Source of the DNA: Sedimentibacter sp. zth1
GTDB taxonomy: Bacteria; Bacillota; Clostridia; Tissierellales; Sedimentibacteraceae
Assembly: GCF_017352195.1 (NCBI RefSeq)
Contig: NZ_CP071445.1
Coordinates: 2,418,001-2,482,000 of the forward strand
DNA: 64,000 nucleotides
Direction: 5' to 3'
Position numbers and translations under genes: made by a program. This document shows positions 9,434-50,674 of this stretch, one piece after another. Each line of letters opens with the position of its first letter. Position 1 is the first letter of the stretch. The notes below the pieces were generated by a model. The model saw nothing but the letters and a program-made list of their open reading frames with translations, did not search any database and was not told the DNA's origin.

Positions 9434-9634
9434 CTAAGCAAGAGTTACATTGCTAGCTTGAGGTCCTTTTTGACCATCAATGATATCAAAGTTTACTTTT
9501 TGTCCTTCTTCTAATGTTTTGAATCCGTCAGAAGTGATAGCTGAAAAATGTACGAATACGTCATTTCCATCATCACAAGAGATAAAACCAAAACCTTTTT
9601 TAGAATCAAACCATTTAACTGTACCTGTTTTCAT
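9434..9634 (-). CDS. Cold-shock protein (CspA family)
   Basis: The product (66 residues) is a single cold-shock domain. The RNA-binding motifs are RNP1 KGFGFI and RNP2 VFVHF, and the start [14 protein letters not shown] is canonical. It is a cytoplasmic nucleic-acid chaperone that melts RNA secondary structure. It is read from the minus strand, with a GGAGG-type ribosome site before the ATG at 9634. It converges with the preceding gene and diverges from the LCP genes. Length and motifs are fully typical. Confidence 0.97.
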
Positions 9635-21160: not shown

Positions 21161-21204
21161 TAAGTTTATGATATAATGTATGTAAAAACGTGTGTGGAGT
21201 AAAT

Positions 21205-22107
21205 ATGAATAAAGCATTGATATTTAACATTCAAAAATTTTCATTACATGATGGTCAGGGTATTAGAACAACCATATTTTTTAAAGGATGTCCACTTAAT
21301 TGTAAATGGTGTCATAATCCTGAGGGAATAAATATTGCTAAGGAAATAATGCATGATAATGCGAAATGTACACTTTGCAGGGTATGTATTGACAATTGTC
21401 CATCAAATGCAATTAGTATACAAAATAATAATATTTTAACAGATAATTTACTATGTAAATATTGTGGTAAGTGTGTATTTAATTGTGTATACAATGTAAG
21501 AGAAATTGTTGGCAAAGAATATACGGTTGAAGAGGTTTTAAAAGAAGTACTAAAGGATAAGGTGTTTTATGAAGAGTCTGGTGGTGGGGTCACGCTATCA
21601 GGTGGTGAACCTGTTATGCAGATTGATTTTGTTGAAGAGTTATTGAAAAAATTGAAAGAAAATAATATTCATACAGCAGTAGATACCAGTGGAGCAATGA
21701 CATTTGATTGCTATGAACGAATATATAAATATACAGATGTTTTTCTGTATGATTTAAAGATTATGGATGATGAAAAGCATAAGATTTTTGTAGGAACTAC
21801 AAACAAGGTTATACTAGAAAATTTAAAAAAATTATCTAAAATACATAAACATATTATTATTAGAATGCCAATAATAAATAATATAAACGCGAACTTTGAG
21901 CATATATCAACTACTATAAAATATTTAAAAGATTTAAATATTGAAGAAGTTAACCTATTGCCTTATCATGATATTTCAAGACATAAATACAGACAGCTTA
22001 ACATTAACTATGATGAATGCAATATGTCGGTACCATCTGACAATACGATGGACAAGTTTAAAGAAATGTTTCAAAAGAGTGGATTGAACGTAAAAATAGG
22101 TGGATAA
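21205..22107 (+). CDS. Glycyl-radical enzyme activating enzyme (radical SAM), partner of HypD
   Basis: The product (300 residues) is a radical SAM activase with the CxxxCxxC motif in FFKGCPLNCKWCHNPEG. A ferredoxin-like insertion with two four-cysteine clusters follows (CTLCRVCIDNCPSNA and CKYCGKCVFNC). It should make the stable glycyl radical on the enzyme encoded next. The frame also opens at a GTG (21190); GGAG at 21194-21197 fits the ATG at 21205. The stop overlaps the start region of the dehydratase gene, so the two are translationally linked. Confidence 0.95.
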   Translation: MNKALIFNIQKFSLHDGQGIRTTIFFKGCPLNCKWCHNPEGINIAKEIMHDNAKCTLCRVCIDNCPSNAISIQNNNILTDNLLCKYCGKCVFNCVYNVREIVGKEYTVEEVLKEVLKDKVFYEESGGGVTLSGGEPVMQIDFVEELLKKLKENNIHTAVDTSGAMTFDCYERIYKYTDVFLYDLKIMDDEKHKIFVGTTNKVILENLKKLSKIHKHIIIRMPIINNINANFEHISTTIKYLKDLNIEEVNLLPYHDISRHKYRQLNINYDECNMSVPSDNTMDKFKEMFQKSGLNVKIGG

Positions 22108-22121
22108 TGAAAGGAGTACTT

Positions 22122-24491
22122 ATGAGAGGTAGCACACAAAGAACAAGAAATCTAAGAGAAATTAGTTTATCAACACCACATACTCTTAGTATGGAGAGAG
22201 CTTTATTAGAAACTAAAGTTTATGAAGATTACTTTGGTAAGGTTGAAATACCAGTATTAAGAGCTTTGAACTTCAAATATTTAATGGAAAACAGAAAACT
22301 TTACATAGGTGAAGGTGAATTAATAGTAGGAGAGAAAACAGAAAGACCGCAGGCAGCACCAACATTTCCCGAACTTTGCTGTCACACAATGGACGATTTG
22401 CGTGTGCTTGACGAAAGAAAATACATAAATTTTAAAGTTTCAAATGAAGATAAAAAGATACATCAAGAAAGTATTATACCATACTGGAAGGGTAAAGCAA
22501 CTAGAGATAAAATAATTGAGAGCATGTCACAGGAATGGAAAGATTGTTACAGTGCGGGTATGTTCACAGAATTTATGGAGCAAAGGGCACCTGGACACAC
22601 AGTTGCAGATGACAAATTTTATAAAAAAGGGTTTATAGATTTAAAAAAAGAAATAGAAGAAGAAATAGATAAACTAGACTTTCTACATGATAAAGATGCA
22701 TATAGTAAAAAAGCACAATTAGAAGGAATGGCAATTTCTTGCGATGCAATCATGATTTATGGAAAAAGATATGCAGAGTATGCAAGACAGCTTGCTAAAG
22801 AAGAAAAAAATTCAACAAGAAAAGAAGAGTTACTGTGGATTGCAGGTAACTGTGATGTAGTACCAGCGCACAAGCCTGAAACATTTGCGCAGGCAATACA
22901 AATGTATTGGTTTGTACATATTGGTGTAACAACCGAATTAAACACATGGGATGCTTTTTCTCCAGGTAGATTTGATCAATACTTATATCCATTCTATAAA
23001 AACGAAGTGGAAAAACGATTAATTACAAGAGAACAAGGTGTTGAGCTGTTAGAATGCTTATGGATTAAGTTTAACAATCAACCAGCTCCTCCTAAAGTTG
23101 GAATTACAATGAAGGAAAGTGCTACATATACTGATTTTTCAAATTTGAATACAGGTGGAATAAACCCTGAAACTGGAGAAAATGGTGTAAATGATGTATC
23201 ATATATGATTTTAGATGTAATGGATGAAATGAAGCTTGTACAACCAAGCTCAAATGTTCAAATAAGCGAGAAATCTCCTAATGAATTTTTGAAAAGAGCA
23301 TGTGCAATATCTCGTAAGGGTTGGGGGCAACCAGCTTTTTACAATACAGAGGAATTAATAAATGAGTTATTGAATGCAGGCAAAGATTTAGTAGATGCTA
23401 GATATGGTGGCTCAAGCGGATGTGTTGAAACAGGAGCGCATGGAAGAGAAGCATACATATTAACTGGATATTTTAATTTACCTAAAGTTTTGGAAATTAC
23501 ATTAAACAATGGTTTTGATAAATATACCAATAAACAAATAGGTTTAAAAACGGGTAATCCAAATGATTTTAAATCTTATAATGGTTTATGGAATGCTTTT
23601 ATAAAACAAATGCAGTATTTTATAGATGTTAAGATGAAGGGTAATAACATTATTGAAAAAATATTTGCTACACATATGCCTTCAACTTTTATGTCTGTTT
23701 TGACAACAGGATGCAAAGAAAGTGGTAAGGACTATAATTCTGGTGGTTCTAAGTATAATACTAGATATATTCAAATAGTGGGAATTGGAACTATAACTGA
23801 TAGTTTAGCTTCTATAAAGAAAAATATATATGATGATAAAATATTTAGCATGAAAGAGTTAATAAATGCTCTTAACAACAATTTTGAAACGCAAGAGTTT
23901 GTGAAAAATATTGTGATTAATAGAACACCTAAATATGGTAATGATGATGAATATGCTGATGAAATAATGGTACAGACATTTAATTCAGTCAATAAACATA
24001 TCACAGGTAAACCTACTATGTGTGGAGGAACATATCACATTGATATGCTTCCAACTACTTGTCATATATATTTTGGTTCAATGACTGGTGCTTTGCCAAA
24101 TGGTAGATTATCAGGCAAACCATTAACAGATGGTATTTCACCAGAAAAAGGTGCTGATATTAATGGTCCAACTGCAGTTATCAAATCTGCATCAAAAATG
24201 GATCATTCTAAAACTGGTGGAACATTGTTGAATCAAAAATTTACGCCTTCTTCTATTGTTGGAGAAATAGGATTAAATAATATGGCAGCACTTATAAGGT
24301 CATATTTTAAGTTGGGAGGACACCATATCCAATTTAATGTTATAGATAAAAAAACTCTTTTGGAAGCACAAAAAAATCCTGATGAATACAAGGATTTAAT
24401 AGTTAGAGTAGCTGGTTATAGTGACCATTTCAATAATCTTGAAAAAGCATTACAGGATGAAATAATTGAGAGAACAGAACAATCATTTTAA
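22122..24491 (+). CDS. hypD: Trans-4-hydroxy-L-proline dehydratase (glycyl radical enzyme)
   Basis: The product (789 residues) closely resembles the Clostridioides difficile HypD that I know, which dehydrates trans-4-hydroxyproline to pyrroline-5-carboxylate. The catalytic thiyl Cys434 and Glu436 fall in SSGCVETG. RAPGHTV and WDAFSPGR carry the substrate-binding His and Asp, and the C-terminal glycyl-radical motif RVAGYSDHF puts Gly765 at the radical. The frame also opens at an ATG at 22107, but AAAGGAG lies inside it and fits 22122, which gives the HypD length. One local difference is GAHGRE after the active site; as I recall C. difficile has GCFGKE. No proC lies nearby. Confidence 0.92.
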   Translation: MRGSTQRTRNLREISLSTPHTLSMERALLETKVYEDYFGKVEIPVLRALNFKYLMENRKLYIGEGELIVGEKTERPQAAPTFPELCCHTMDDLRVLDERKYINFKVSNEDKKIHQESIIPYWKGKATRDKIIESMSQEWKDCYSAGMFTEFMEQRAPGHTVADDKFYKKGFIDLKKEIEEEIDKLDFLHDKDAYSKKAQLEGMAISCDAIMIYGKRYAEYARQLAKEEKNSTRKEELLWIAGNCDVVPAHKPETFAQAIQMYWFVHIGVTTELNTWDAFSPGRFDQYLYPFYKNEVEKRLITREQGVELLECLWIKFNNQPAPPKVGITMKESATYTDFSNLNTGGINPETGENGVNDVSYMILDVMDEMKLVQPSSNVQISEKSPNEFLKRACAISRKGWGQPAFYNTEELINELLNAGKDLVDARYGGSSGCVETGAHGREAYILTGYFNLPKVLEITLNNGFDKYTNKQIGLKTGNPNDFKSYNGLWNAFIKQMQYFIDVKMKGNNIIEKIFATHMPSTFMSVLTTGCKESGKDYNSGGSKYNTRYIQIVGIGTITDSLASIKKNIYDDKIFSMKELINALNNNFETQEFVKNIVINRTPKYGNDDEYADEIMVQTFNSVNKHITGKPTMCGGTYHIDMLPTTCHIYFGSMTGALPNGRLSGKPLTDGISPEKGADINGPTAVIKSASKMDHSKTGGTLLNQKFTPSSIVGEIGLNNMAALIRSYFKLGGHHIQFNVIDKKTLLEAQKNPDEYKDLIVRVAGYSDHFNNLEKALQDEIIERTEQSF

Positions 24492-24530
24492 AATTGTAGT
24501 TAACTTTAAAAATATTTTTAACAAATATGT

Positions 24531-24565
24531 AAAATCCCATCGAAAATTATTTTGATGGGATTTTT
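24531..24565. terminator. Terminator between hypD and the converging regulator
   Basis: AAAATCCCATC and GATGGGATTTT form an 11-base stem with T and A runs on both sides. It probably works in both directions and overlaps the end of the minus-strand regulator gene. Confidence 0.85.
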
Positions 24566-25875
24566 GATATAATAAAAGTAGTTATATCATTAACGGCATT
24601 TACGTCTTTTATATTACTATAATGGTTAATAAAAATAAATAATAAATCACTATTGTAAGGTAGAATTTCTGTTGAAATTAACTCTAATAACTGATTTTTG
24701 AGTGAGTTGATTTCATTTTCATTATTTTCTAAAATATATATATTTAGAAGATTATGAAAGCAATTTTTTATAATATTTATTTTATTGCATCTAATACTCT
24801 GAAAAAGTGATTTGTTAAGATAAAACTTACTTTTATCATATTCTTTTAGAAAATAGAATGCTTCTCCAATATCATTGTAAAATTCACAAATATATTTATT
24901 GCTATCTGTTTTTAAATAATTCTCTAAATATAATATTGCTATTTCTAAATTCTTTATTAGGCCTTTTGTATCATTTAATTTTTTGTAAATATCTAAAATA
25001 TTTACAAGCGTAAGCAATTTGATTTCTATATTATCTTTTGCTAAAAATAAAGTTTGTTTATGAATTTGCAATGCCTTTTTATATGATTTGAGTTCACAAT
25101 AGCAGTTTGCTTTTAAAATCATTACATTAGTTTTTCTAGTTATATTTGAATTTAAAATATCTATGAATTTATTTTCAATGCAATAAATATTTTCTAAACA
25201 CTTATCGTAGTTTTTCAACTGCTTAAAAGCTATTACATCATTATAATAAATTTTGTAGTTTTGCTCTAATGGCATGGATGGCATGTATATTCTAGCTAGA
25301 TTGCTAAATTCTAAACTTTCTTTCATCTTATTAATTTTTGCACTGCAATAATTAATACTAATAATTAAGTTTACTAGATTAATATTGTTAAGCATTTCAG
25401 TAAAATTTTCAAAAGACATTAAATAATAAGAGTATGCCATATAATAATCATTGCTTTTCTTGTAGTAATCTCCAAGCTTTTTATATATGGTTGATTTAAA
25501 CTTTTTATAGTTGTATTTATTTAAAATACATATTACTTTAGATAAATAATTTTGAAAATTTTCTTCTGAAATTTTTTTTGGATTTGCATCTATTAAGGTT
25601 ATAAAATTATTTGCGATTCTTTCAACTTGTGTATTGACACTTTCAAGTAAATAATCTAATGATACATCACATTCAATAGATTTTTCTTTACATACTTTTC
25701 TAATGTTTTTAATTATTTTTTTTGCTGTGCTTTCTATAAGATTAGCTTTATTGGTTTCAATCATTGATATCATATTTCTAGATATATCATTTCTGCTAAT
25801 TTCATATTGTTTTATACCATATTTTTTTCTTATTTTTTTTAATTTGTCTCCAGAGGTCATTACTTCTATATTCAT
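24547..25875 (-). CDS. HTH-TPR transcriptional regulator of the RiPP locus (RRNPP-like)
   Basis: The product (442 residues) has an N-terminal XRE helix-turn-helix (about residues 8-60; YGIKQYEISRNDISRNMIS) and about ten helical pairs typical of tetratricopeptide repeats to the end. This is the architecture of peptide-sensing RRNPP regulators, longer than PlcR. It is divergent from a 51-residue exported peptide gene and the peptide-modification operon, as in Rgg- or ComR-controlled bacteriocin loci. A GGGAGA ribosome site supports the ATG at 25875. The ligand and regulatory sign are not visible from sequence. Confidence 0.82.
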   Translation of the reverse strand: MNIEVMTSGDKLKKIRKKYGIKQYEISRNDISRNMISMIETNKANLIESTAKKIIKNIRKVCKEKSIECDVSLDYLLESVNTQVERIANNFITLIDANPKKISEENFQNYLSKVICILNKYNYKKFKSTIYKKLGDYYKKSNDYYMAYSYYLMSFENFTEMLNNINLVNLIISINYCSAKINKMKESLEFSNLARIYMPSMPLEQNYKIYYNDVIAFKQLKNYDKCLENIYCIENKFIDILNSNITRKTNVMILKANCYCELKSYKKALQIHKQTLFLAKDNIEIKLLTLVNILDIYKKLNDTKGLIKNLEIAILYLENYLKTDSNKYICEFYNDIGEAFYFLKEYDKSKFYLNKSLFQSIRCNKINIIKNCFHNLLNIYILENNENEINSLKNQLLELISTEILPYNSDLLFIFINHYSNIKDVNAVNDITTFIISKIPSK

Positions 25876-25956
25876 AAATTATCTCCCTTGAAATTCTATA
25901 AAATGACAAAATTTTACTTACTAAATAAATATTCGAAAAAAGGTAAATGAAAAGTA

Positions 25957-25985
25957 TTGACATTTAATTTTATTTAATTTAACAT
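25957..25985 (+). promoter_or_regulatory. Candidate promoter of the small exported peptide gene
   Basis: A perfect TTGACA (25957-25962) is 17 bases from TAACAT (25980-25985); a better TATAAT starts at 25987 but is too far. The weak -10 with a perfect -35 suggests an activator-dependent promoter. Confidence 0.45.
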
Positions 25986-26042
25986 ATATAATATAACAAA
26001 CTTACATATAAATGTAAATAAAAATATAAGGAGATGTAGTTT

Positions 26043-26198
26043 ATGATAAAATTTAAAAAAGTTATTGTAATTTTAATGTGTATGGTAATATTGACTGCTA
26101 ATAGCAAAATAGCAAATATACTAGATAATAATTCAAATGATTTAATACAGACAGAGAGTACTGATCCTGATGGTGAAGATGAATATATAAATAATTAA
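26043..26198 (+). CDS. Small exported peptide, candidate signal for the divergent regulator
   Basis: This 51-residue product starts with a basic MIKFKK, then a hydrophobic signal-like stretch to about residue 19. It ends in a polar, acidic part (NDLIQTESTDPDGEDEYINN). An AAGGAG site lies correctly before the ATG. It is divergent from the HTH-TPR gene and upstream of the peptide-modification operon. A short peptide with an export signal beside an RRNPP-like regulator fits a pheromone precursor, with the mature signal from the C-terminal part. It has no cysteines and is less likely to be the modified product itself. Confidence 0.65.
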   Translation: MIKFKKVIVILMCMVILTANSKIANILDNNSNDLIQTESTDPDGEDEYINN

Positions 26199-26212
26199 GT
26201 AAGTACAATCAG

Positions 26213-26241
26213 TTGACACTTAGTGTAGATTAAGCTACTAT
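26213..26241 (+). promoter_or_regulatory. Promoter of the peptide-modification operon, with palindrome in the spacer
   Basis: TTGACA (26213-26218) and TACTAT (26236-26241) are 17 bases apart, 40 bases before the M16 peptidase gene. ACACTTAGTGT (26216-26226) is a palindrome overlapping the -35 and spacer and could be an operator. Confidence 0.6.
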
Positions 26242-26280
26242 TTAGCAAACTAATTCTTAAAAATACAAGTAGGTGAAAAT

Positions 26281-27549
26281 ATGTATGATATATTAAACGT
26301 TTACTTGGAAAATGGATTAAGAGTAGTAATGCATAAAATTCCCTATTCTAAAACAGTTGCTTGTGGCGTTTGGGTCAAACAGGGCAGCAAGCACGAAGAC
26401 GACCAGACAAATGGACTATCTCATCTAGTAGAACATTTGATAATAAATGTAAACAATCATAATAATCCAGAATTCCAAAAATTAATAAGAGAATTAAATG
26501 ATGAAGGAGTAGTACATAATGCGGGTACTACTAAAGAAAATACTAATTTTTATTTTACAGGTTTAAATAAAAACCTAGAAAAATGTATTGCTACATTAGC
26601 TGAGATGGTAATGCATAATAAAAATTTTTCAGAAGAATTATTAGAAAATGAAAAGAAAGTTGTTGCACAAGAAACTATATCGTTTTACTCTTCGTTTAAC
26701 CAGATAAGGGAAAGAACGAGTCAAGCACTTTATGGAAATATGGACGTAGGAAGAACTATAGTAGGAGTTATAGATAACATTAAACAGGCTAATAGTGATC
26801 AATTAAATTATATTATGAAAAATAGCTATACACCTGAAAATTCTACTATAGTTATAATTGGAGGAATTGAATATGATGCAGTCTTGCGTATAGTCGAAAA
26901 ATATTTTTCTTCATGGGATGATGAATACACTCGTGACTATAGTGAAGTTGTTGATAGTGAGCCTGGTATATTTTTTAATGAAATAGCAGGTGGTCAAAGT
27001 TCAGTAATTTCAGTAGGATTTAGAACAGGTGCTTTTAACAGTAAAGATAGAAAAAAAATTGATATAATATCTAAAATTATAGGTGAGCCAGGTTTTGAAT
27101 CTAGACTTGTAAAGGAAATTAGGACAAAAAGAGGTCTTGCATATAATTTGGGAGCATTTACAAACAGCTACGAACATAGAGGTGCATTAGGTTTTACAGT
27201 TGTATGTGCTCATGACTTAGTATATGAAGTTGTTTCAATAATATCTGATGAAATTATTAATATAAAGCAAAACGGTTTTAATGATGAAGAAATAGACAGA
27301 GCAAAAAAAATATTAGAGACTAGGACAATGCTGGATTTAGATAATATTCTTTCTCAATTAAAGTTTTTGGGTAGATGTACATCTTATAACCATTTATTTT
27401 CTTTAGAGCAAGAAGTTAGAAACATAAAAAAAATAAATAAAGAAGACCTAAATAATTTAGCAAATGAAATATTTCTAAATGAAAAAATGGGGTTTGCTGG
27501 TATAGGTAATTTTAGTATAGATAAATCAATTGAACTGTTAAAAATTTAG
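26281..27549 (+). CDS. M16-family zinc metallopeptidase (RiPP-associated)
   Basis: The product (422 residues) is an M16 peptidase with the inverted zinc motif HLVEH at residues 48-52 and a downstream glutamate region (ENEKKVVAQE). The second, non-catalytic half carries the conserved RTKRGLAYNLGAF block. M16 enzymes cut short peptides in a closed chamber, and in several RiPP pathways they remove leader peptides. There is no signal peptide, so it should act in the cytoplasm. It is the first gene of the operon that includes two tiny precursor-like genes and a radical SAM enzyme. Confidence 0.9.
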   Translation: MYDILNVYLENGLRVVMHKIPYSKTVACGVWVKQGSKHEDDQTNGLSHLVEHLIINVNNHNNPEFQKLIRELNDEGVVHNAGTTKENTNFYFTGLNKNLEKCIATLAEMVMHNKNFSEELLENEKKVVAQETISFYSSFNQIRERTSQALYGNMDVGRTIVGVIDNIKQANSDQLNYIMKNSYTPENSTIVIIGGIEYDAVLRIVEKYFSSWDDEYTRDYSEVVDSEPGIFFNEIAGGQSSVISVGFRTGAFNSKDRKKIDIISKIIGEPGFESRLVKEIRTKRGLAYNLGAFTNSYEHRGALGFTVVCAHDLVYEVVSIISDEIINIKQNGFNDEEIDRAKKILETRTMLDLDNILSQLKFLGRCTSYNHLFSLEQEVRNIKKINKEDLNNLANEIFLNEKMGFAGIGNFSIDKSIELLKI

Positions 27550-27566
27550 GTAAAGGAGGTTTAAAA

Positions 27567-28136
27567 ATGCCTGATATTCCTTGTATATATAAAATGGATT
27601 TAGTGGATGAAAAAGATGTTTTAAAAGAAGATTTGTTAAAAGGAAAAGCCTTTGATATACTACTTTCTTTACTAGCTGGTTCTAAATCTATAAAAGATAT
27701 TTCGAAAGAGCTTAATGTACCAAGTTTTTCTGTACAGTTATATATCAAAAGGTTAATTGATGCTAAATTAGTTAAAGTTAAGAATTCAAAAGTAGTTGAG
27801 GGGAAAATAGAAAAATGCTATGAACTTGTATCAACAGATATTCAAATAATAAATTATTTGAAAGAAAGCAATGCAATTATAGATGATAAAAAAGACATAG
27901 AACTTTTAGCTTTGCAATTCTCATCATTGACTAAAGATGTAATAAAGAATATAAATAAATTTCAAGATAAACCTCATAAGATAAAAGCTTACTTTATCAA
28001 GGCAGATGAGGAAAAAATAGCTGAATTTAAAAAAGAGTTGGATGCATTATTTGAAAAATATCAATCTTTAGAGGATTTGAGTGTTGATGACACATATGGA
28101 TTTATTAGTGTCTTGGCACCATATAAAATAGAATAA
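27567..28136 (+). CDS. Winged-helix (ArsR-like) protein of the RiPP operon
   Basis: The product (189 residues) has an N-terminal winged helix-turn-helix (about residues 25-95; SIKDISKELNVPSFSVQLYIKRLIDAKL is its core, seen in segments) and an unassigned helical C-terminal half. ArsR/HTH_20-like regulators have this layout. It begins 17 bases after the peptidase gene and precedes the first precursor-like gene by 22 bases, so it is part of the operon. It may be a local repressor, or a nucleic-acid or leader-binding accessory; the sequence does not decide. Confidence 0.7.
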   Translation: MPDIPCIYKMDLVDEKDVLKEDLLKGKAFDILLSLLAGSKSIKDISKELNVPSFSVQLYIKRLIDAKLVKVKNSKVVEGKIEKCYELVSTDIQIINYLKESNAIIDDKKDIELLALQFSSLTKDVIKNINKFQDKPHKIKAYFIKADEEKIAEFKKELDALFEKYQSLEDLSVDDTYGFISVLAPYKIE

Positions 28137-28158
28137 TATTAGGAAGGGGGGGATAATA

Positions 28159-28314
28159 TTGAACGATAAAAATAAGAAAAATGAAAAGAGACTTGAAGAA
28201 CAAGATAAAAGCCTAAAAATAGAGGTAACTGAAGAATCATTTAATGTAACTGATGAGGATGAGCGACCGGGAATAGGTTGGGAAATAACAGGTAATGGAA
28301 GTAGTGGTGGCTAA
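28159..28314 (+). CDS. Small peptide 1, candidate RiPP precursor with Gly-rich C-terminus
   Basis: This 51-residue product starts at TTG (28159), which has a very strong AGGAAGGGGGG site six bases upstream. The first 36 residues are charged and leader-like (EVTEESFNVTDEDERP). The end is GIGWEITGNGSSGG, with a single Trp and many Gly/Ser. It has no signal sequence and no cysteine. A charged leader with a short Gly-rich core next to a radical SAM/SPASM gene is the usual look of a radical-SAM RiPP precursor. A crosslink at Trp is possible, as in streptide-type peptides, but is only inference. Confidence 0.7.
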   Translation: MNDKNKKNEKRLEEQDKSLKIEVTEESFNVTDEDERPGIGWEITGNGSSGG

Positions 28315-28394
28315 TATATTTTCAAAATTATTTCTTATAAAATTCTACATATTTATTATGTGTGAATTATATTAATTTTTAGGAGGAGTTAGTT

Positions 28395-28607
28395 ATGGGA
28401 AACGAAAAGAAATTGGTTGCATTAGAGAAAAAAATGTATTGCGTTGAAGATGGAAAGCTTGTTATTACATCTGATGAATTGGCAAAAGCAATACAGGAAG
28501 AGAATTTGGATTTATTTGTGGATGAAGAATTTGCAGCAAGTAATGGATCAGCATTGCAATGCTGTACTTCACAATTAGAACCAATAGGAGACAGCAGAAC
28601 AAACTAA
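28395..28607 (+). CDS. Small peptide 2, candidate RiPP precursor with C-terminal Cys-Cys
   Basis: This 70-residue product begins at ATG after AGGAGGAG. Residues 1-45 are an amphipathic acidic leader (DELAKAIQEENLDLF). The C-terminal part is AASNGSALQCCTSQLEPIGD plus a short tail, with adjacent cysteines at 56-57; another cysteine is at 16. It lacks an export signal, so export would follow modification by the ABC or MFS transporters downstream. Cysteines beside a SPASM radical SAM gene suggest thioether (sactipeptide or ranthipeptide) chemistry, unproven. It shows little similarity to peptide 1 beyond the acidic leader. Confidence 0.72.
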   Translation: MGNEKKLVALEKKMYCVEDGKLVITSDELAKAIQEENLDLFVDEEFAASNGSALQCCTSQLEPIGDSRTN

Positions 28608-28615
28608 TATCCAAG

Positions 28616-28647
28616 CAAATATCAGGAATGCATATTCCTGATATTTG
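28616..28647 (+). terminator. Perfect 14-base hairpin after the precursor genes
   Basis: CAAATATCAGGAAT and ATTCCTGATATTTG pair perfectly around a GCAT loop. The usual uridine tract is lacking, so it is either a weak attenuator or a stabiliser that raises precursor over enzyme expression. Confidence 0.75.
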
Positions 28648-28719
28648 TATTAGTAATACAATACTAAATATAAAATTATAGCACTAGTAATTATTATAAA
28701 AATTAAGGAGAAATTTACT

Positions 28720-30003
28720 ATGAAAATATCTAATTATAATTTAAAAGTAAACTTTGATAATCATATTATAATTTTTAACAAGTTATCGAAAAAATATGTT
28801 ATATATTCAAGTGATAAGGAAGAGCTAGTAACTAATATTATAACTAATATTAGTAGCAGTAACTTTGAAATTGAAAATGCAAATATTTTATTAAAGTTAG
28901 GAAAAGCTGGAATAATTATTGGTGATAAGGAAGATGAAACTAATAAGTTATCATACTTAATTAATAAAACTAAATATCAGGATCGAAAGTTGTTATTAGT
29001 TATTTCTCCAACTATGGATTGTAATTTTAGATGTCCATATTGTATAGAAGAACATAAAAATACATATATGAGTGAAGAAACTGAAGATAACATAATTAAA
29101 TTCGTAGAAAAGATGAGTAAACTAATTGGTTGTGTACAAGTTTCATGGTTTGGTGGAGAGCCAACAATTGCTTTAAAAACAATTAATAAAATAAATAGAA
29201 AATTAAAAGAAATTTGTAATGCTAATGGCTGTGAATATACAATTACAATAACAACAAATGGATTTCTATTGTCCGATAATGTTTTAGATGAATTAAATAA
29301 ATATAACATAAAAAGATTGCAAATTACCGTTGATGGTGATGAAGAGCACCACGATAAAAAAAGAATATTAGCAAATGGTTCTGGTACATACAAAACTATT
29401 TTAAGCAATATAATAAATGCACTAGATAAAAATATCAATATTGTATTGCGAATAAATATTGATGAGGACAATAAGGATTCTGTTTATGCATTACTGGATG
29501 CTATTCCATATGAAAAAAGAAAAAAAGTTATGGTTCATATATCTAACTTGTTTCAAACAGTAGAACCAATAAAGCTATTTGAAATGTATAAAATGGCAAT
29601 AGATAAAGGTTACATATTTAAATATTTTCATAAACAATTACAATTTTGTGAAGCTGGTTTTATAAATTCGTTTACAATTCAGCCAAATGGTGAAATAGGA
29701 CCGTGTCAGATTGGATATGATTCAAATATAAAGTTCGGTGAAATTACAAAAAATGGAAACATTAATGTAACCAATAAAAGTGATTACTATAATTTTCGAC
29801 AATCAAGTCCTCTAGATGATGATGAATGTTTAGAATGTGATGATTTACCATTATGCTTGGGAGGATGTCCGGTATCCAGATTTAAGGGAAATAAGAAATG
29901 TGCTAAAAAAGATAAATTAGGTATAACAATTAGTGAGTTGCTTAAATTAGAAATATATTCAAATATGAAAAATAATTTAATTGATAAAGAGTGTATATTA
30001 TAA
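28720..30003 (+). CDS. Radical SAM/SPASM peptide maturase
   Basis: The product (427 residues) has an N-terminal segment (1-85) that may bind the leader, then the radical SAM motif CNFRCPYC at residues 101-108. SWFGGEPT and TITTNGFLL are SAM-binding signatures. The C-terminal SPASM region carries the auxiliary-cluster cysteines (GPCQIGY, DECLECDDLPLCLGGCP, KKC). Enzymes of this kind install thioether or carbon-carbon crosslinks in RiPP precursors. Its two likely substrates are the small genes just upstream. The reaction cannot be predicted from the sequence. Confidence 0.9.
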   Translation: MKISNYNLKVNFDNHIIIFNKLSKKYVIYSSDKEELVTNIITNISSSNFEIENANILLKLGKAGIIIGDKEDETNKLSYLINKTKYQDRKLLLVISPTMDCNFRCPYCIEEHKNTYMSEETEDNIIKFVEKMSKLIGCVQVSWFGGEPTIALKTINKINRKLKEICNANGCEYTITITTNGFLLSDNVLDELNKYNIKRLQITVDGDEEHHDKKRILANGSGTYKTILSNIINALDKNINIVLRINIDEDNKDSVYALLDAIPYEKRKKVMVHISNLFQTVEPIKLFEMYKMAIDKGYIFKYFHKQLQFCEAGFINSFTIQPNGEIGPCQIGYDSNIKFGEITKNGNINVTNKSDYYNFRQSSPLDDDECLECDDLPLCLGGCPVSRFKGNKKCAKKDKLGITISELLKLEIYSNMKNNLIDKECIL

Positions 30004-30039
30004 TTAAAAACCATATGATTTTTTACAGAGGAGTGCAAA

Positions 30040-31302
30040 ATGAAAATTGTTTTATTAAAGGATAAAGATTTTCTGCTTTTAATGTTAGGAAAATTAGTTT
30101 CATTAATAGGAAGTGATATGCAAAGTTTTGCTTTGTCTCTATATGTACTCAAAATCACAGGTTCGGCAACTAAATTTGCTTCCGTCCTATCAATTACAAT
30201 TATTCCTAAGCTAATATTAGGTCCAATAGCGGGAGTGTTTACAGATTGGCTAGATCGTAAGAAGATTATTGTATGCTTTGATTTTTTAAATGGAGTAATT
30301 ATAGGTATATATGCGATATTATTTAATTTCACTGGAGAATTAACTATGACTAGTATATATTTTTTAGTATTTATATTATCGTTAACATCTGTAGTATTTC
30401 AACCTGCGATATCAACTGTTATTCCTAGTATAGTTAAAAAGGATCACTTGATAGATGCAAATGGTATTAATTCTATTGTAATGAGTATTGGATCTTTAGT
30501 TGCTCCAATGATAGCGGGAATTCTAATGGGTATGAATGGCATGTTAATTATTTTTTGGGTAAATTCAATTAGTTTTATGTTATCAGCAACAAGTGAAGTA
30601 TTTATTCGCATTCCTAATTATAATAAAATGCCTAATAAAATAAGCTTTAAGGCTTTTAAAAGAGATTTTGTAGAGGGAATACGGTATATTAAAAATACTA
30701 AAATAATTGTGGTATTTATTTCAATTGTAATAATTGTTAATTTTGCATTTAATCCTTTGTTTAATATAGGAATAGTGTTTATATGCAAAGAGGTTCTAAA
30801 AATAAGTGACTTTCAATATGGAGTTATGCAGACAGTTCTTGTTGTTTCTATGTTTATAGCTCCAATATTGTGTGGCTATATTTCTAAGAAGATTTCTATT
30901 GGGAAAATAGTGTTCTATAATATATTTTTTATTTGCATTTTAAGTTTATTTATAGCCATTATTTCTACAGAAAGTTTTAGAAGTATGTTTTGTAGTAATA
31001 TGGTTCCTTTTATATTGATTTTGTCAATATGCTTTGTAGTAGGTGTTATTCTTGGAATCATAAATATATCAGTAGGAGTGGTAGTACAGAAAAATGTTTC
31101 TTTAGATAAGCTTGGAAGAGTTAATACTGTTATGACTACGGGTACTATGAGTATAATTCCTATGGGTATGATGTTTTTTGGTTTTTTATATGATACTATA
31201 CCGGTGTGGTTGTGTGTAACAATCTCAGCTATAATAATGTTTGCTGGTATAATAACGTTTAAAAATACATTATTTGAAACTGAAAAAGAGTATGTTAAAT
31301 AA
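30040..31302 (+). CDS. MFS transporter of the RiPP locus
   Basis: The product (420 residues) is a twelve-helix major facilitator protein of the MFS_3/enterobactin-exporter-like group. SLIGSDMQSFALSLYVLKITG near the start and GPIAGVFTDWLDRKKI after helix 2 are typical of this group. Such proteins are often self-resistance or export pumps in natural-product clusters. It follows the radical SAM gene after 36 bases and precedes the two ABC exporters, so it probably helps export or immunity; the direction and substrate are inference. Confidence 0.88.
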   Translation: MKIVLLKDKDFLLLMLGKLVSLIGSDMQSFALSLYVLKITGSATKFASVLSITIIPKLILGPIAGVFTDWLDRKKIIVCFDFLNGVIIGIYAILFNFTGELTMTSIYFLVFILSLTSVVFQPAISTVIPSIVKKDHLIDANGINSIVMSIGSLVAPMIAGILMGMNGMLIIFWVNSISFMLSATSEVFIRIPNYNKMPNKISFKAFKRDFVEGIRYIKNTKIIVVFISIVIIVNFAFNPLFNIGIVFICKEVLKISDFQYGVMQTVLVVSMFIAPILCGYISKKISIGKIVFYNIFFICILSLFIAIISTESFRSMFCSNMVPFILILSICFVVGVILGIINISVGVVVQKNVSLDKLGRVNTVMTTGTMSIIPMGMMFFGFLYDTIPVWLCVTISAIIMFAGIITFKNTLFETEKEYVK

Positions 31303-31353
31303 ACAGTATTCTAAGTAAAGTATAAAATATTATACTAGTTTAGGGGGTAACAA

Positions 31354-33171
31354 ATGAAATGTAAAAGTAAGAAAAATAATACTTCGAATTTTAAGTATTA
31401 TTTTATGGAAGTGTGGAACAGTGATAGAAAACTAATATTATGTTTTATTATCTATACTGTTATTACCTCAATTTTACCTTTCTTAGGTATATTTACACCT
31501 AAGCTTTTGGTAAAAGAGTATTTAGGATTAAAAAGAACAGAAACTTTTATGTATATTCTTGGGGCGTTTATATTATTGTCTGCAACAGGTTATTATGTTT
31601 CATCATATCTTAATGCTATTAAAATAAATAAATTATTAAAGATAAAGCAGGGATTATGCGTAAAAATACAAGAAAAGTGCATGAAAATGGATTTTAAATT
31701 TACTGAAGATAGAGATGTATTAACTGAATATCACAATGCAGATTATGCTGTTGGAAGTTCAGAGAGAGGATTTACAGCTGTATATACTAAGGTCTTTAAT
31801 TTGTTGGGACGTATTTTGGCATTTGGTGGATACATTGCTATAGTATTGACTTTAAGTCCTTGGGTATTATTATATTTATTGGCGAATGTACTTGTTGTGT
31901 ACAAGCTTACAGTTTTGGCTAGGAAGTATGAGTATAGCAGGCTTGATGAAAAAACAGATAATCGTAGAAAACAGGAATATATTTACAAAGCTATGTCTGA
32001 CTTTGCGTATGGAAAAGATATCAGAATATATAAAATTCAAAAATGGCTTGTAGAAAAATTTGTGCGTTTTACAAATAAAAATGTGATTATAAGTAAAGAA
32101 ATTGCTAATAAGCATTTGAAAGTATCATTGGTTGATGCATTTTTGTTACTTATTAGAGAGGGAATTATTTATGCATATCTGATTTATAGAGTTATAGTCG
32201 TTAAAGATATGTCAATTGATAATTTTATTATGTATTTTACTACTATAGCAGGATTTGCTGTTTGGATGCAAAGTATAATGAATGATATAGCATTTATAAA
32301 AGAGCATAATATGTATGTTAGCAATTATTTGCATTTTATGAGTTTAGGTGATGATAGCAATGGTAAATCTTATGAAGAAGTTCCAATGCAGGGATCGTAT
32401 GAAATTGAATTCAAAAATGTGGCTTTTAAATATCCTAATAGCGACAGGTATATATATAAGAATTTGTCCTTAAAAATAAGAGAAGGTCAAAGACTTGCAA
32501 TTGTAGGTGTTAATGGAGCAGGAAAGACAACCTTTGTTAAATTGCTATGCAGACTTTATGAGCCAACAGAGGGTGAAATATTACTTAACGGAATAAACAT
32601 ACAAAAATTTAATAAGGAAGAGTATTATAAGTTGTTTTCACCTGTGTTTCAAGACATTAAAATGTTTGCTTTTTCTATAAGCGAGAATGTAGCCTTAACA
32701 AGTAAAGAAAAAATTGACAGAAAAAAGGTTGTAGAATCTATTGATAGAGCGGATGTTTTAGAGAAAGTTAATTCTTTAGAAAAAGGTATAGATACAAGTC
32801 TATTAAAATTTTTGGACAGTGAAGGTATTGAACTATCAGGGGGAGAAAATCAAAAGCTTGCTCTTGCAAGAGCCCTATACAAGAATGGTGGAATTGTTGT
32901 ATTAGATGAACCAACTGCAGCATTAGATGCAATTTCTGAGTATAAGACTTATATGAGATTCAATGATTTTGTTGGAGATAAAACAGCTATATATGTATCT
33001 CATAGACTTGCAAGTACTAGATTTTGCGATGTAATTGCGTTCTTTGAAAATGGTGAGGTTAAAGAATATGGTACTCACGAGGAACTATTAGAAAAGAATG
33101 GACGTTATAGAGAAATGTTTGATATACAAGCACGATATTATAGAGAAGATGTTGCAAAGGAGGAAGCATAA
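31354..33171 (+). CDS. ABC exporter half-transporter A
   Basis: The product (605 residues) has an N-terminal six-helix permease domain (about 1-330) fused to an ATPase domain. Walker A is GVNGAGKTT near residue 388, the signature is LSGGENQKLALARA, and Walker B is GIVVLDEPTAALD. No C39 leader-peptidase domain is present, so leader removal would need the M16 enzyme or another protease. It overlaps the next ABC gene by one base. The two are related and probably form a heterodimer exporting the modified peptide. Confidence 0.92.
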   Translation: MKCKSKKNNTSNFKYYFMEVWNSDRKLILCFIIYTVITSILPFLGIFTPKLLVKEYLGLKRTETFMYILGAFILLSATGYYVSSYLNAIKINKLLKIKQGLCVKIQEKCMKMDFKFTEDRDVLTEYHNADYAVGSSERGFTAVYTKVFNLLGRILAFGGYIAIVLTLSPWVLLYLLANVLVVYKLTVLARKYEYSRLDEKTDNRRKQEYIYKAMSDFAYGKDIRIYKIQKWLVEKFVRFTNKNVIISKEIANKHLKVSLVDAFLLLIREGIIYAYLIYRVIVVKDMSIDNFIMYFTTIAGFAVWMQSIMNDIAFIKEHNMYVSNYLHFMSLGDDSNGKSYEEVPMQGSYEIEFKNVAFKYPNSDRYIYKNLSLKIREGQRLAIVGVNGAGKTTFVKLLCRLYEPTEGEILLNGINIQKFNKEEYYKLFSPVFQDIKMFAFSISENVALTSKEKIDRKKVVESIDRADVLEKVNSLEKGIDTSLLKFLDSEGIELSGGENQKLALARALYKNGGIVVLDEPTAALDAISEYKTYMRFNDFVGDKTAIYVSHRLASTRFCDVIAFFENGEVKEYGTHEELLEKNGRYREMFDIQARYYREDVAKEEA

Positions 33172-34961
33172 TGAAAAAAGATAGTTCAAAAAGCTTTAGA
33201 AAAGATCTCAAAATAATAATACATTTTTTAAAGCTAACACAAAAAATTAATAAGAGCTATGTTCCGACATTGATTACAGCAGCTTTATTTAAGGCACTTA
33301 CTCCTCTTGTCAATATAATAATGCCTAAGTTTATTATAGATGAGTTATTGATGGATATGAGAATAGATTTTCTTGTTATGCTTGTTGCTATTACGGTGGT
33401 TAGTAATCTTATTTTAAATATTATAAATAGATGTTTTGCAAAGTTTATTGCTGTAAAGGATTTAGAGATATCTAATGGATTTGATTTGTTGATTGGTAAA
33501 AAGGTAATGAACTTAGATTTTGAGCAGATTGAAGATCCGGAAGTTTTGAACCTAAAAGAATTAGCAGTATTTCCTGTAAGAGATCAGGGTACTATTCAAT
33601 TTATGGTTCAGGATATTATGAAACTTTTTACTCAGTGTATAAGTATTATTACGTTAGGTGCTGTTCTTATTACATTAAGTCCAATTTTAGTTATATTTAT
33701 AATAGTTATGGTTTTATTTAATACATATATTTTTAACAGAATTCAGAAGACTCAATACAAAATGAATCAGGATATTATAATATTTAATAGAGAATATGTG
33801 TACCTTTATAACATAGGAGATGATTTTGCTTTAGGAAAAGATGTCAGACTATATAATATGAGCCCTTTAATAGTCAATAAATTATTAAAATATAATGATA
33901 AACTACTTAATGTATTTAATAAAGGCAATATAAAAATAGGTAAGTACGAAGGAATGAATAAAGTGAATTTTCAGTTACAGACATTTGGAACATATGGCTA
34001 TTTGGTATACAGGCTATTAACAGGATTAGGAATAGGCAACTTTACAATGTATGCAAATACAACTTTAAATTTTAGTACAGCCATTGCTGATTGTTTAAGC
34101 TGTTATGTTGGTATATCTCAAAAGTGTAGATATCTGGAGCTATATTTAGAATTTGAAGGTTTGAAATCAAAAAAAAGCATAGGTGAAGAAGCAACAAAAA
34201 GTATAAGTGATTTTACTATAGAATTTAAAAATGTTGGTTTTAAATATCCAAGGAGTAAAAATTATACATTAAAAAACATCAATATTACAATAAAACCAGA
34301 AGAAAAACTTTCAGTTGTAGGTCTAAATGGAGCTGGTAAAACAACATTTATTAAGCTTCTATGCAGATTATATGAAGTAACTGAAGGAGAAATTTTACTA
34401 AATGGCGTAAATATACAAAAATATGATTACGATGAATACATGGACCTATTATCTGTTGTATTTCAAGATTTTAAGCTTTTTGCTTTTACATTGAAGGAAA
34501 ATGTAGGATTATTAGGTTGGGATAACATAGATGATAAAGAAATAAAAGGCGTTATAGAAAAAGCTGGTTTGGGCAATGACTTAAATAAATTGAGCAAAGG
34601 TATATACACTACTGTTTATAAGATATTTGATAAGTCTGGAATAGAGCTCTCAGGCGGACAGTCACAGAAGCTTGCTATAGCAAGAGCAATATATAAAAAT
34701 GCTCCAATTGTTGTACTGGATGAACCGACAGCAGCTTTAGATCCATTTGCAGAATTTGAGATATATAGCAAGTTTAATGAGCTAGTTGGTGGAAAGACAG
34801 CAATATATATTTCTCACAGATTATCTAGCTGTAAGTTTTGTGATAACATAGCAGTATTTAAGAACGGAGAAATAGTTGAATACGGCAATCATGATGAATT
34901 AGTTAATGAGCATGGACTTTATGAAGAAATGTATATGGCACAGGCACAGTATTATGTATAG
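33171..34961 (+). CDS. ABC exporter half-transporter B
   Basis: The product (596 residues) is the paralogue of the preceding gene: an N-terminal permease domain, then an ATPase with Walker A GLNGAGKTT, signature LSGGQSQKLAIARA and Walker B VVLDEPTAALD. It starts in a TAATGA overlap with the partner, which implies coupled translation and a 1:1 complex. It is the last gene of the peptide-modification operon, and a strong terminator follows. The shared motif INIQKYDYDEYMDLLSVVFQ-like region ties both halves to peptide or bacteriocin exporters. Confidence 0.92.
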   Translation: MKKDSSKSFRKDLKIIIHFLKLTQKINKSYVPTLITAALFKALTPLVNIIMPKFIIDELLMDMRIDFLVMLVAITVVSNLILNIINRCFAKFIAVKDLEISNGFDLLIGKKVMNLDFEQIEDPEVLNLKELAVFPVRDQGTIQFMVQDIMKLFTQCISIITLGAVLITLSPILVIFIIVMVLFNTYIFNRIQKTQYKMNQDIIIFNREYVYLYNIGDDFALGKDVRLYNMSPLIVNKLLKYNDKLLNVFNKGNIKIGKYEGMNKVNFQLQTFGTYGYLVYRLLTGLGIGNFTMYANTTLNFSTAIADCLSCYVGISQKCRYLELYLEFEGLKSKKSIGEEATKSISDFTIEFKNVGFKYPRSKNYTLKNINITIKPEEKLSVVGLNGAGKTTFIKLLCRLYEVTEGEILLNGVNIQKYDYDEYMDLLSVVFQDFKLFAFTLKENVGLLGWDNIDDKEIKGVIEKAGLGNDLNKLSKGIYTTVYKIFDKSGIELSGGQSQKLAIARAIYKNAPIVVLDEPTAALDPFAEFEIYSKFNELVGGKTAIYISHRLSSCKFCDNIAVFKNGEIVEYGNHDELVNEHGLYEEMYMAQAQYYV

Positions 34962-34986
34962 TAAATATTTTTGAAATAGATATTCT

Positions 34987-35026
34987 AAAAAGCAAACTAA
35001 CTTAACTACTTAGTTTGCTTTTTTGT
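34987..35026. terminator. Terminator of the RiPP operon
   Basis: AGCAAACTAA and TTAGTTTGCT form a 10-base stem followed by TTTTTT; upstream A runs let it also serve the converging antiporter gene. Confidence 0.85.
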
Positions 35027-37237: not shown

Positions 37238-37972
37238 ATGAAATTATATGTTGTAGGTTTTGGAGCGGGTGGTTATGAAAACATGACTATTCAGGCAAAA
37301 GATGCATTGGAAAATAGTGATATTATAGTTGGATATACTGTTTATACAGGTTTATTGAAACCATATTTTGGTCATAAACAATTTTATGAAACTCCAATGA
37401 TGAAGGAAATAGATAGATGTAGGTGGGCTATAGAAAAGGCTGAAGAAAACAACATAGTTTCCATGGTATGTAGTGGTGATAGTGGTGTTTATGGTATGGC
37501 AAGCTTGATATATGAGCTTGTAGGAGAAAAGGGTGATATTGATATAGAAGTTATATCAGGAGTAACAGCTGCGCTAAGTGGAGGAGCTGTTTTGGGAGCA
37601 CCTTTGACGCATGATTTTGCTGTAATTAGCCTGAGCGATTTACTTACTCCTAAACAACTAATATATAAAAGAATAGAATGTGCTTCAATTGCTGATTTTG
37701 TTATTTGTATTTATAATCCATCAAGCAAAAAAAGATCAAGCTACTTGCAAGAGGCATGTGATATTATGTTAAAATATAAATCGGAAGAAACAGTGTGTGG
37801 ATTTGTTAAAAATATTGGTAGAGATGGAGAGAAAAGCACAATTGTATCATTGAAAGAGCTAAGAAATGTTAATGTAGATATGTTTACAACTGTTTTTGTA
37901 GGAAATAGTCAAACTAAAGTAATTAATGGTAAAATGGTTACTCCAAGGGGGTATAACTCAAACAAAAGATAG
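37238..37972 (+). CDS. cbiH: Precorrin-3B/cobalt-factor III C17-methyltransferase
   Basis: The product (244 residues) is an SAM-dependent tetrapyrrole methylase. The N-terminal VVGFGAGGYENMT, the CSGDSGVYGMA loop and the C-terminal GNSQTKVINGKMVTPRGY are typical of CbiH/CobJ, which methylates C17 and contracts the ring. It is needed for the anaerobic cobalamin pathway encoded downstream. It is separated from those genes by a promoter and the B12 riboswitch and has its own terminator upstream, so it is not under the same riboswitch. Confidence 0.93.
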   Translation: MKLYVVGFGAGGYENMTIQAKDALENSDIIVGYTVYTGLLKPYFGHKQFYETPMMKEIDRCRWAIEKAEENNIVSMVCSGDSGVYGMASLIYELVGEKGDIDIEVISGVTAALSGGAVLGAPLTHDFAVISLSDLLTPKQLIYKRIECASIADFVICIYNPSSKKRSSYLQEACDIMLKYKSEETVCGFVKNIGRDGEKSTIVSLKELRNVNVDMFTTVFVGNSQTKVINGKMVTPRGYNSNKR

Positions 37973-38408: not shown

Positions 38409-39620
38409 ATGAAGAAAAAAAGTTTAAAATTAGCAGTAGTATTTTTGTTAATAACACTACTATTGGTAGCATTTACAGGATGCACTAAAAATGAGGATGC
38501 AAATAACGATGCATCAAATAATGTAAGTAATGAAAACAATAATTCTAAAACTAATAATGATGGAAAAGAAGAAGATTATAATGGAAAATTAGTTTTTGAT
38601 CATTCGATGGAACTAGTTTATGCTAAAAACTTTTCAGTAGATTACTATAAGGGTGGTTACAAGCTTATAAAGGTTTGTGATGGAAGACAGTTTTTAACTA
38701 TACCAGAGGGTATGAATGTGCCAGCAGATATAGAAGAAGGTGTTGTAACATTACAAATGCCTTTAGATAATATGTTGATATCATCTACACCAACTATGTC
38801 ACTTATAAATGGTCTTGATAAATTAGACAAAGTATCTTTAGTTACTACAAAAAGATCGTCTTGGTACATAGATGAAATTGGAAAAGCAATTGATGATGGC
38901 AAAATTGAATACATTGGTTCGTATAAAGCACCAGACTATGAAATGATAACAGCTAAACAACCTCCATTTGCAGTATTTTCAACAATGCTTTTAAGAGTGC
39001 CAGAGGTTGCAGAAAAATTAGATGAATTAAAAATACCATATTTACTAGACCAAGCTACATATGAAGAGCATCCAATGGCAAGAGTAGAATGGGTAAAATT
39101 ATATGGTGCATTATTAGATTGCGAAGAAATAGCTGAAAAACATTTCAAAGAACAAGTTGCATATGTTGAAAATTTAGATTTAGAAACAGAAGATCCTGAA
39201 ACAACAGCAGTTTTCTATATAACTTCAAAGGGAACTCTTTATGCTCGTAGGGGTGGAGATTATATGGCAAAAATGGTTGAGTTAGCAGGAGGTAAATATA
39301 TATTTGCTGATATGGAACCAGATAAAACTGGAGCTCAAAAGATGGAATTTGAAGAATTTTATGCAACAGCAAAAGATGCAGACAATATTATATATATTTG
39401 GAGTTTAGGCGGAAAACCAGAAACAGTAGATGATTTTATAGCAAAAAATGAATTGTTTAGTGACTTTAAAGCTGTAAAAGAAGGAAACGTATGGTGTACA
39501 ACACCAAATTACTTCCAAATTTCAAATGTGTTAGGTTATATGATTAAAGATATAAATGAAATGCTATCAATAGATGATAATTCTGTAAATGAATTAACAT
39601 ATTTATTTAGATTGCAATAG
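38409..39620 (+). CDS. Corrinoid/iron-type ABC substrate-binding lipoprotein (BtuF-like)
   Basis: The product (403 residues) is a lipoprotein with lipobox LVAFTGCTK near residue 26, an Asn/Asp-rich linker (about 30-58), and a Fe/B12-type periplasmic-binding domain. It is the first gene after the B12 riboswitch and precedes permease and ATPase genes, so corrinoid is the likely ligand; cobalt-complex or haem uptake cannot be excluded from sequence alone. The fold is suggested by the SLINGLDKLDKVSLVT region and the late NIIYIWSLGG region. Confidence 0.88.
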   Translation: MKKKSLKLAVVFLLITLLLVAFTGCTKNEDANNDASNNVSNENNNSKTNNDGKEEDYNGKLVFDHSMELVYAKNFSVDYYKGGYKLIKVCDGRQFLTIPEGMNVPADIEEGVVTLQMPLDNMLISSTPTMSLINGLDKLDKVSLVTTKRSSWYIDEIGKAIDDGKIEYIGSYKAPDYEMITAKQPPFAVFSTMLLRVPEVAEKLDELKIPYLLDQATYEEHPMARVEWVKLYGALLDCEEIAEKHFKEQVAYVENLDLETEDPETTAVFYITSKGTLYARRGGDYMAKMVELAGGKYIFADMEPDKTGAQKMEFEEFYATAKDADNIIYIWSLGGKPETVDDFIAKNELFSDFKAVKEGNVWCTTPNYFQISNVLGYMIKDINEMLSIDDNSVNELTYLFRLQ

Positions 39621-50503: not shown

Positions 50504-50674
50504 TTGGAAATTGGATTAATAATAGTAATTGCTGGTGCAGTGGTTAATTTCAGCTCAGACAGATTTTTTAAAAAAGGAAAAATTAAAAATATAAAGGACC
50601 TCGTCAAGATTAAGTCATTAAGCTTGCTAGTTTCAGCAGTCGGGCTTGTTATAGCTATATATATGAATAATTAG
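50504..50674 (+). CDS. Small membrane protein under the valS T-box
   Basis: This 56-residue product starts at TTG (50504), nine bases after AAGGAGG (50488-50494). The frame continues upstream to an ATG at 50468, which lies in the terminator T run and lacks a ribosome site. It has a hydrophobic segment (EIGLIIVIAGAVVNFSS), a basic middle (KKGKIKNIKDLVKIK) and a second hydrophobic segment (LLVSAVGLVIAIYM). Two membrane helices in a hairpin are likely. It shares the T-box transcript with valS. I do not recognise a family; similar short proteins precede valS in some Clostridia, but I cannot verify this. Confidence 0.65.
   Translation: MEIGLIIVIAGAVVNFSSDRFFKKGKIKNIKDLVKIKSLSLLVSAVGLVIAIYMNN

Follow-up and report, generated by a model that had tools for sequence, protein, structure and literature searches.

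In streptococci, radical SAM peptides are known to be under peptide control, which is exerted by Rgg/SHP systems (as described in the available part of PMC13361665), and the principle is therefore not new. The main text of that review contains neither 'M16' nor 'clostridi' (0 occurrences each). Leader removal by M16 proteins has likewise been described, for PttP1/PttP2 and for IndP, in the accessible portions of PMC10885120 and PMC12150305, respectively. In the locus considered here a radical SAM peptide may be linked to a small signal peptide, this time in a bacterium that its base composition suggests to be clostridium-like.

The locus lies within a 64,000-nucleotide stretch of Sedimentibacter sp. 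zth1 DNA (the window; 28.9% G+C) and is very probably a radical-SAM RiPP cluster, having a small precursor gene, a leader kept at three loci (the window and the genomes G032 and G041), and modifying enzymes adjoining it. All ten genes named in an initial annotation of this DNA are present (Table 1), and the absence of C39 domains from the ABC exporters that it had reported agrees with their Pfam hits, which include none. The plus-strand run from the 51-aa peptide gene to exporter 2 has gaps of no more than 112 nt, and the ribosome-binding sites of most of its genes are, by eye, good. Rfam models at gathering thresholds found nothing in 24500-35000, PADLOC returned generic matches only, and in plasmid searches the best places were all below 60% identity, one further plasmid search giving no match. 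Directly upstream of the locus, at 21190-24491, is a gene for a glycyl radical enzyme (PFL-like and Gly_radical domains), which on reading is preceded by an activating-enzyme-like gene. Genes at 37238-37972 and 38409-39620 encode a tetrapyrrole methylase and an uptake protein of the periplasmic-binding type, and an ORF that follows reads as permease-like; perhaps these are cobalamin or metal genes.

Table 1. Features of the locus and of a second candidate locus in the same genome; positions are those of the window unless a contig is given.
Feature	Position	Strand	Remarks
HTH regulator with weak TPR matches, 442 aa	24547..25875	-	Divergent from the rest of the locus
51-aa peptide with export-like start, candidate signalling propeptide	26043..26198	+	Basic start, hydrophobic stretch, Shine-Dalgarno-like site
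M16 peptidase, candidate leader peptidase	26281..27549	+	PF00675, PF05193; distinct clade
Winged-helix protein, putative ArsR-like repressor or leader-binding protein	27567..28136	+	Weak matches; relatives beside clade M16
Small peptide 1, 51 aa, putative role	28159..28314	+	TTG start; ends GWEITGNGSSGG
Small peptide 2, 70 aa, best-supported candidate RiPP precursor	28395..28607	+	Cys-Cys near C-terminus
15-bp stem-loop between precursor and maturase genes	28615..28648	+	Possible attenuator or RNA-processing site
Radical SAM/SPASM putative peptide maturase, 427 aa	28720..30003	+	Pfam/NCBIfam, Cys motifs
MFS transporter, putative export or self-protection	30040..31302	+	MFS_1 above Pfam cut-off
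ABC exporter 1, membrane and ATPase parts fused	31354..33171	+	No C39 domain
ABC exporter 2	33171..34961	+	Start overlaps end of exporter 1 by one base
Second own locus, candidate RiPP	G000:C1:2517474-2528360 (L037, L038)		About 35 kb beyond window end

The M16 protein scores above the Pfam cut-off in both its N and C domains, and has the HxxEH motif (HLVEH at 48, by regular expression) with downstream Glu residues, one of which we take to be zinc-binding. At E 1e-40 it finds matches in 71 of 248 genomes of the order, mostly at 25-32% identity, and four loci stand apart from these (G032, G041, G179 and a second locus in its own genome) at 37-41% identity and 284-361 bits, the next best match scoring 179 bits. 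Together with the window these make up a clade of five loci in four of the 248 genomes, and invariant residues of all five proteins are H48, E51, H52, E124, E131, R281 and Y288. When 26 further M16 proteins from the order and class were placed in a tree with them (a usable ORF was obtained from 26 of the 27 non-cluster loci tried), the five fell into a single clade with 100/100 support, some branches being long. A profile of the five proteins at 1e-70 found matches in 57 of the 382 class genomes searched; the two own loci, both in the profile, scored 693 and 656 bits, and as the best match beyond them reached 280 bits we count no further clade member in the class.

The loci that share this M16 clade differ in what surrounds it. 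Those of G032 (L069) and G041 (L070) consist of the M16 and winged-helix genes, a gene for a 56-aa peptide just after these two, which are of the kinds seen in the window, a 600-aa radical SAM protein and two ABC exporters. The radical SAM protein of G041 has a B12-binding domain above the Pfam cut-off and NF050148 (ApyD) as its best match; that of G032 is, on reading, of the cobalamin type. A second, identical copy of the peptide gene follows a partial winged-helix copy in G032 (L069:7141-8684, minus strand), a tandem duplication. Upstream of M16 in both genomes are transposase genes with an rve or Mu-type C-terminal domain (L069:12220-14527, L070:10839-13188), with a partner ATPase on reading. 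The two genomes are placed in different families, yet are close in M16; given this closeness and the transposase genes there are hints that the locus was transferred between families, and the pair may therefore stand for one transfer event and not for two independent witnesses.

The second own locus contains two peptide genes, three radical SAM genes, an ABC exporter, M16, winged-helix and MFS genes, and, after the first peptide, the first of these radical SAM genes again in truncated form. Its peptides (61 aa from an assumed internal ATG) end in Cys/Gly-rich stretches, with NDGCGIMGC and CGGCGITGC as their last residues; their likeness to small peptide 2 is not significant (81 and 40 of 2000 shuffles). 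G179 (L071) has a divergent HTH gene, a 53-aa peptide with a hydrophobic start, and an 809-aa ORF (L071:7939-10368, minus strand) in which M16 domains are joined to a Radical_SAM domain with no B12-binding match, followed by two ABC exporters. The fusion looks like the result of an in-frame deletion that removed the end of M16, the cobalamin-binding part and, with them, the genes for precursor and winged helix, and may be an assembly fault; a precursor search in G179, for which there was no positive control, came back empty.

Matches of the window's winged-helix protein to winged-helix families are weak, falling below the Pfam cut-off. A search at E 1e-8 gave matches in 3 of 249 genomes of the order, namely G032, G041 and its own, where there is a second copy, and its relatives adjoin clade M16 genes at three other loci. 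From the winged-helix sequences compared, an ArsR-like gene of G179 was left out. Viral scans with profiles of this protein and of the precursor gave no match. Single-sequence AlphaFold models were too poor to use (pLDDT 44 for the regulator, 45 for the winged-helix protein). An apparent likeness between small peptide 2 and the winged-helix protein of G032 (5 of 2000 shuffles) was discarded, the comparison with the window's own protein giving 1380 of 2000.

Small peptide 2 is the best-supported candidate for the precursor on comparison of sequences. Its leader aligns with the G032 and G041 precursors at scores of 75 and 63, against shuffled means of 25-26 (z 10.5 and 7.1; 0 of 2000 shuffles each), and the genes that adjoin a gene of this type across the loci are M16 and the winged helix. 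With tblastn, small peptide 2 recovered the G032 copies from five fetched loci (E 3e-4), the G041 copy not being reported, and a profile of the three leader peptides, run against 229 genomes of the order, recovered the three genomes on which it was built and none besides. Two weak matches of small peptide 2 alone among 391 genomes of the class (E 0.005 and 0.008) lie in long open frames and were put down to chance. In the whole 64 kb, five ORFs of 45-99 aa outside longer ORFs are preceded by a Shine-Dalgarno-like site (regular expression), and three of them are the 51-aa peptide and small peptides 1 and 2; the other two lie at 9434-9634 (minus strand) and 50504-50674 (plus strand). The stem-loop that follows the precursor gene has a folding energy of -19.6 kcal/mol (z -5.8), which none of 200 shuffles equalled; nothing like it was found after the peptide genes at three sister loci (z -0.3 to 0.05).

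In the radical SAM protein, the Radical_SAM and SPASM domains both score above the Pfam cut-off, and CxxxCxxC occurs at 101 and CX2CX5CX3C at 370 (regular expressions), the latter of which we take to be the SPASM cysteine pattern. Among NCBIfam models the nearest to it are TIGR04463, whose name refers to Cys-rich targets (208 of 525 bits), CefB, Cys-every-fifth (201 of 600), and Clo7bot (200 of 600), with none of the curated cut-offs reached. As these scores are far below the cut-offs of even the best families, the reaction of the enzyme is not readable from a family name. The nearest solved protein is 5wgg (E 1.3e-15, residues 93-402). Relatives at E 1e-40 occur in 10 of 100 genomes of the order including its own, the others at 31-38% identity, and tblastn found no M16, winged-helix or small peptide 2 gene in 11 fetched neighbourhoods of 16-18 kb around such relatives. 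Among 391 genomes of the class its own genome alone passes 1e-58. Scans of genome contigs and of viral sequences used short peptide patterns from the one protein, by which only close relatives are detectable: the viral scan gave no match, and four loci from the contig scan (23-27% identity; Rhodospirillaceae and Planctomycetota MAGs) were set aside as generic radical SAM proteins. Among the genomes searched there is no close relative of the enzyme and no orthologous cluster, and co-evolution of maturase and precursor is for that reason without support.

Most likely, this is a radical SAM RiPP cluster in which one precursor has support, the M16 protein removes the leader and ABC proteins export the product. 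The chemistry, the order of the steps, the peptide sensing and all functions given in what follows are predictions from sequence. The leader (DGKLVITSDELAKAI...) of the 70-aa peptide encoded at 28395 would be recognised by the cluster, and the SPASM enzyme encoded at 28720 would modify the C-terminal part of this precursor. Most likely one or both of the adjacent Cys residues would be linked to another residue, in a thioether of the ranthipeptide or sactipeptide kind; such a linkage is proposed because the names of the families nearest to the enzyme refer to Cys-containing targets. The leader family as a whole is not marked by the Cys-Cys pair, since the precursors paired with cobalamin-type enzymes are without Cys. 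The M16 peptidase would then remove the leader in the cytoplasm, a separate peptidase being expected where ABC exporters lack a C39 domain, and the paired exporters, themselves without a peptidase domain, would secrete the product. The MFS pump may contribute to export or to self-protection, and the winged-helix protein may be the repressor of the operon or a binder of the leader. Last, the HTH protein probably would switch the operon in response to a short fragment of the 51-aa peptide, whose gene is divergent from its own. That the locus serves to make, trim and export a radical-SAM-modified peptide, with the 70-aa peptide as precursor and the steps as laid out here, is in our judgement the best explanation and a reasonably probable one; its observed basis is the gene content, the leader homology, the M16 clade and the conserved active-site residues.

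The place of small peptide 1 in this scheme has been viewed in other ways. The initial annotation proposed two precursors, of which small peptide 2 is retained by its leader homology (0 of 2000 shuffles), but small peptide 1 as a second core is so far unsupported: the conserved leader is absent from it, its best match, to the G032 peptide, was equalled in 52 of 2000 shuffles (72 for G041), and it has no significant relative in its own and the three sister genomes, the best other match (E 0.9) lying in a 584-aa open frame. Even so, both peptides, the one Trp/Gly-rich and the other with Cys-Cys, could be substrates of one enzyme and leave the cell through the two ABC proteins as a two-component bacteriocin, and it is the case that both genes, each with a strong ribosome-binding site, are placed after the chassis genes and before the maturase, and that the GWEIT at the end of small peptide 1 resembles the GWKIT of the G032 precursor, if in a weak alignment. 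The want of a leader and of relatives speaks against such a system, as do the nearest families of the enzyme, named for Cys targets, and we hold it to be rather unlikely. We are more doubtful that small peptide 1 is not a substrate but a partner, such as an immunity peptide, or the remnant precursor of a cobalamin-type maturase gone from this genome. It would be in keeping with this that the peptide has neither Cys nor the conserved leader, that its weak likeness is to the precursors of the cobalamin-type loci, and that a cobalamin-type maturase has no match in this genome at E 1e-10; the likeness, however, is not significant, and the empty maturase search had no positive control in this genome.

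A larger doubt attaches to control. The published RRNPP scheme (PMC10075063, in the part available) calls for a receptor of 250-500 aa with TPRs (HMM E <1e-5, coverage >65%) and an adjacent propeptide of 10-100 aa that is secreted according to SignalP. At 442 aa, and directly adjacent to the 51-aa gene, the regulator agrees in length and adjacency, and the 51-aa peptide in its own length; the regulator's best Pfam TPR match (TPR_12, 2.3e-4) falls short of 1e-5, with only the Pfam part of that paper's library, as available, being used; this match and that of its HTH (residues 9-54; HTH_19, 3.4e-4) are both below the Pfam gathering score, and the regulator has no other match in its own genome at E 0.001. 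The 51-aa peptide matches no family in Pfam or NCBIfam, and by reading of its sequence has, after the basic start, a hydrophobic N-terminal stretch, VIVILMCMVILTANS, of mean hydropathy 2.45. Its gene lies 167 nt from the divergent regulator gene and 82 nt before M16 on the same strand. It may be that the HTH gene and this peptide are an unrelated neighbour, and that control of the cluster lies with the winged-helix protein alone or elsewhere, which we regard as a serious if lesser possibility. The position of the 51-aa gene just ahead of M16 argues against this, as does the similar layout of G179, where the divergent HTH gene and the 53-aa peptide also come just before M16; but the HTH gene is on the other strand, no such pair is seen at three of the five loci (by reading, G032, G041 and the second own locus have no ORF of 250-500 aa resembling such a regulator before M16), and the HTH protein of G179, clear in its HTH, has no TPR match at E 0.01 and no significant BLASTP match to the regulator of the window. 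The similarity of the 51-aa and 53-aa peptides (21 of 2000 shuffles) was not counted as kinship, because shuffling breaks up the hydrophobic stretch common to both, and a perfect 6-4-6 palindrome at 26002-26017 was given no weight as an operator, being one of 17 inverted repeats in the stretch and picked after the fact. The modification and export pathway of the initial annotation is thus supported, with one precursor. The signalling that it added would be a candidate function, the layout being found at two of five loci; the divergent HTH gene and the 51-residue peptide are there as described, and peptide-sensing control of the operon by them is, from their sequences, plausible.

Taken across the loci, the leader, the M16 peptidase and the winged-helix protein look like a conserved chassis in which the maturase is the changing part, being a SPASM enzyme in the window, a cobalamin-binding enzyme in two other genomes, and at the second own locus a set of three radical SAM proteins. 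This claim has a small base of four genomes, and its leader part one of three. Should unrelated radical SAM maturases have been swapped while leader, M16 clade and winged helix were kept, the winged-helix protein could be a leader-binding adaptor that hands the precursor to the maturase and not a DNA-binding repressor; in this reading of swapped maturases with an adaptor we put little faith. Among the matches listed in the open-licence PubMed Central literature we found no description of such a leader, M16 clade and winged helix with a changing maturase. If the module truly serves different maturases, it would show new modified peptides arising by enzyme exchange, and would offer an engineering toolkit of one leader, one peptidase and several enzymes.

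For the streptococcal RaS-RiPPs streptide, tryglysin and streptosactin (PMC13361665, in the part available), a regulator encoded next to a small exported peptide controls the operon in which precursor, radical SAM enzyme and transporter are encoded, a layout that the locus shares, with such control plausible here too; the locus differs in that its conserved core is M16 and winged helix, and no Rgg family occurs among the Pfam/NCBIfam hits of its regulator. The Clo7bot, TIGR04463 and CefB maturases are the best-scoring over nearly the full length of the window's enzyme, the N-terminal part included, but at 200-208 bits against cut-offs of 525-600; a near-member of Clo7bot in the same order (L028) reaches 588 of 600 bits. 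ApyD of aminopyruvatide is likened to the G041 protein by the B12-binding domain and the best match to NF050148, and is set apart by a score below the cut-off (251 of 750 bits); further enzymes of the apy cluster are a P450, an MNIO and a methyltransferase (PMC10635010, in the part available), for which G032 and G041 were covered by reading of their ORF lists. Finally, the streptococcal ind cluster and the class III lanthipeptide PttP1/PttP2 (PMC12150305 and PMC10885120, in the accessible portions) share with the window an M16 protein as RiPP leader peptidase, here a candidate, while their modifying enzymes are others, namely a ThiF-like enzyme and the class III lanthipeptide pathway.
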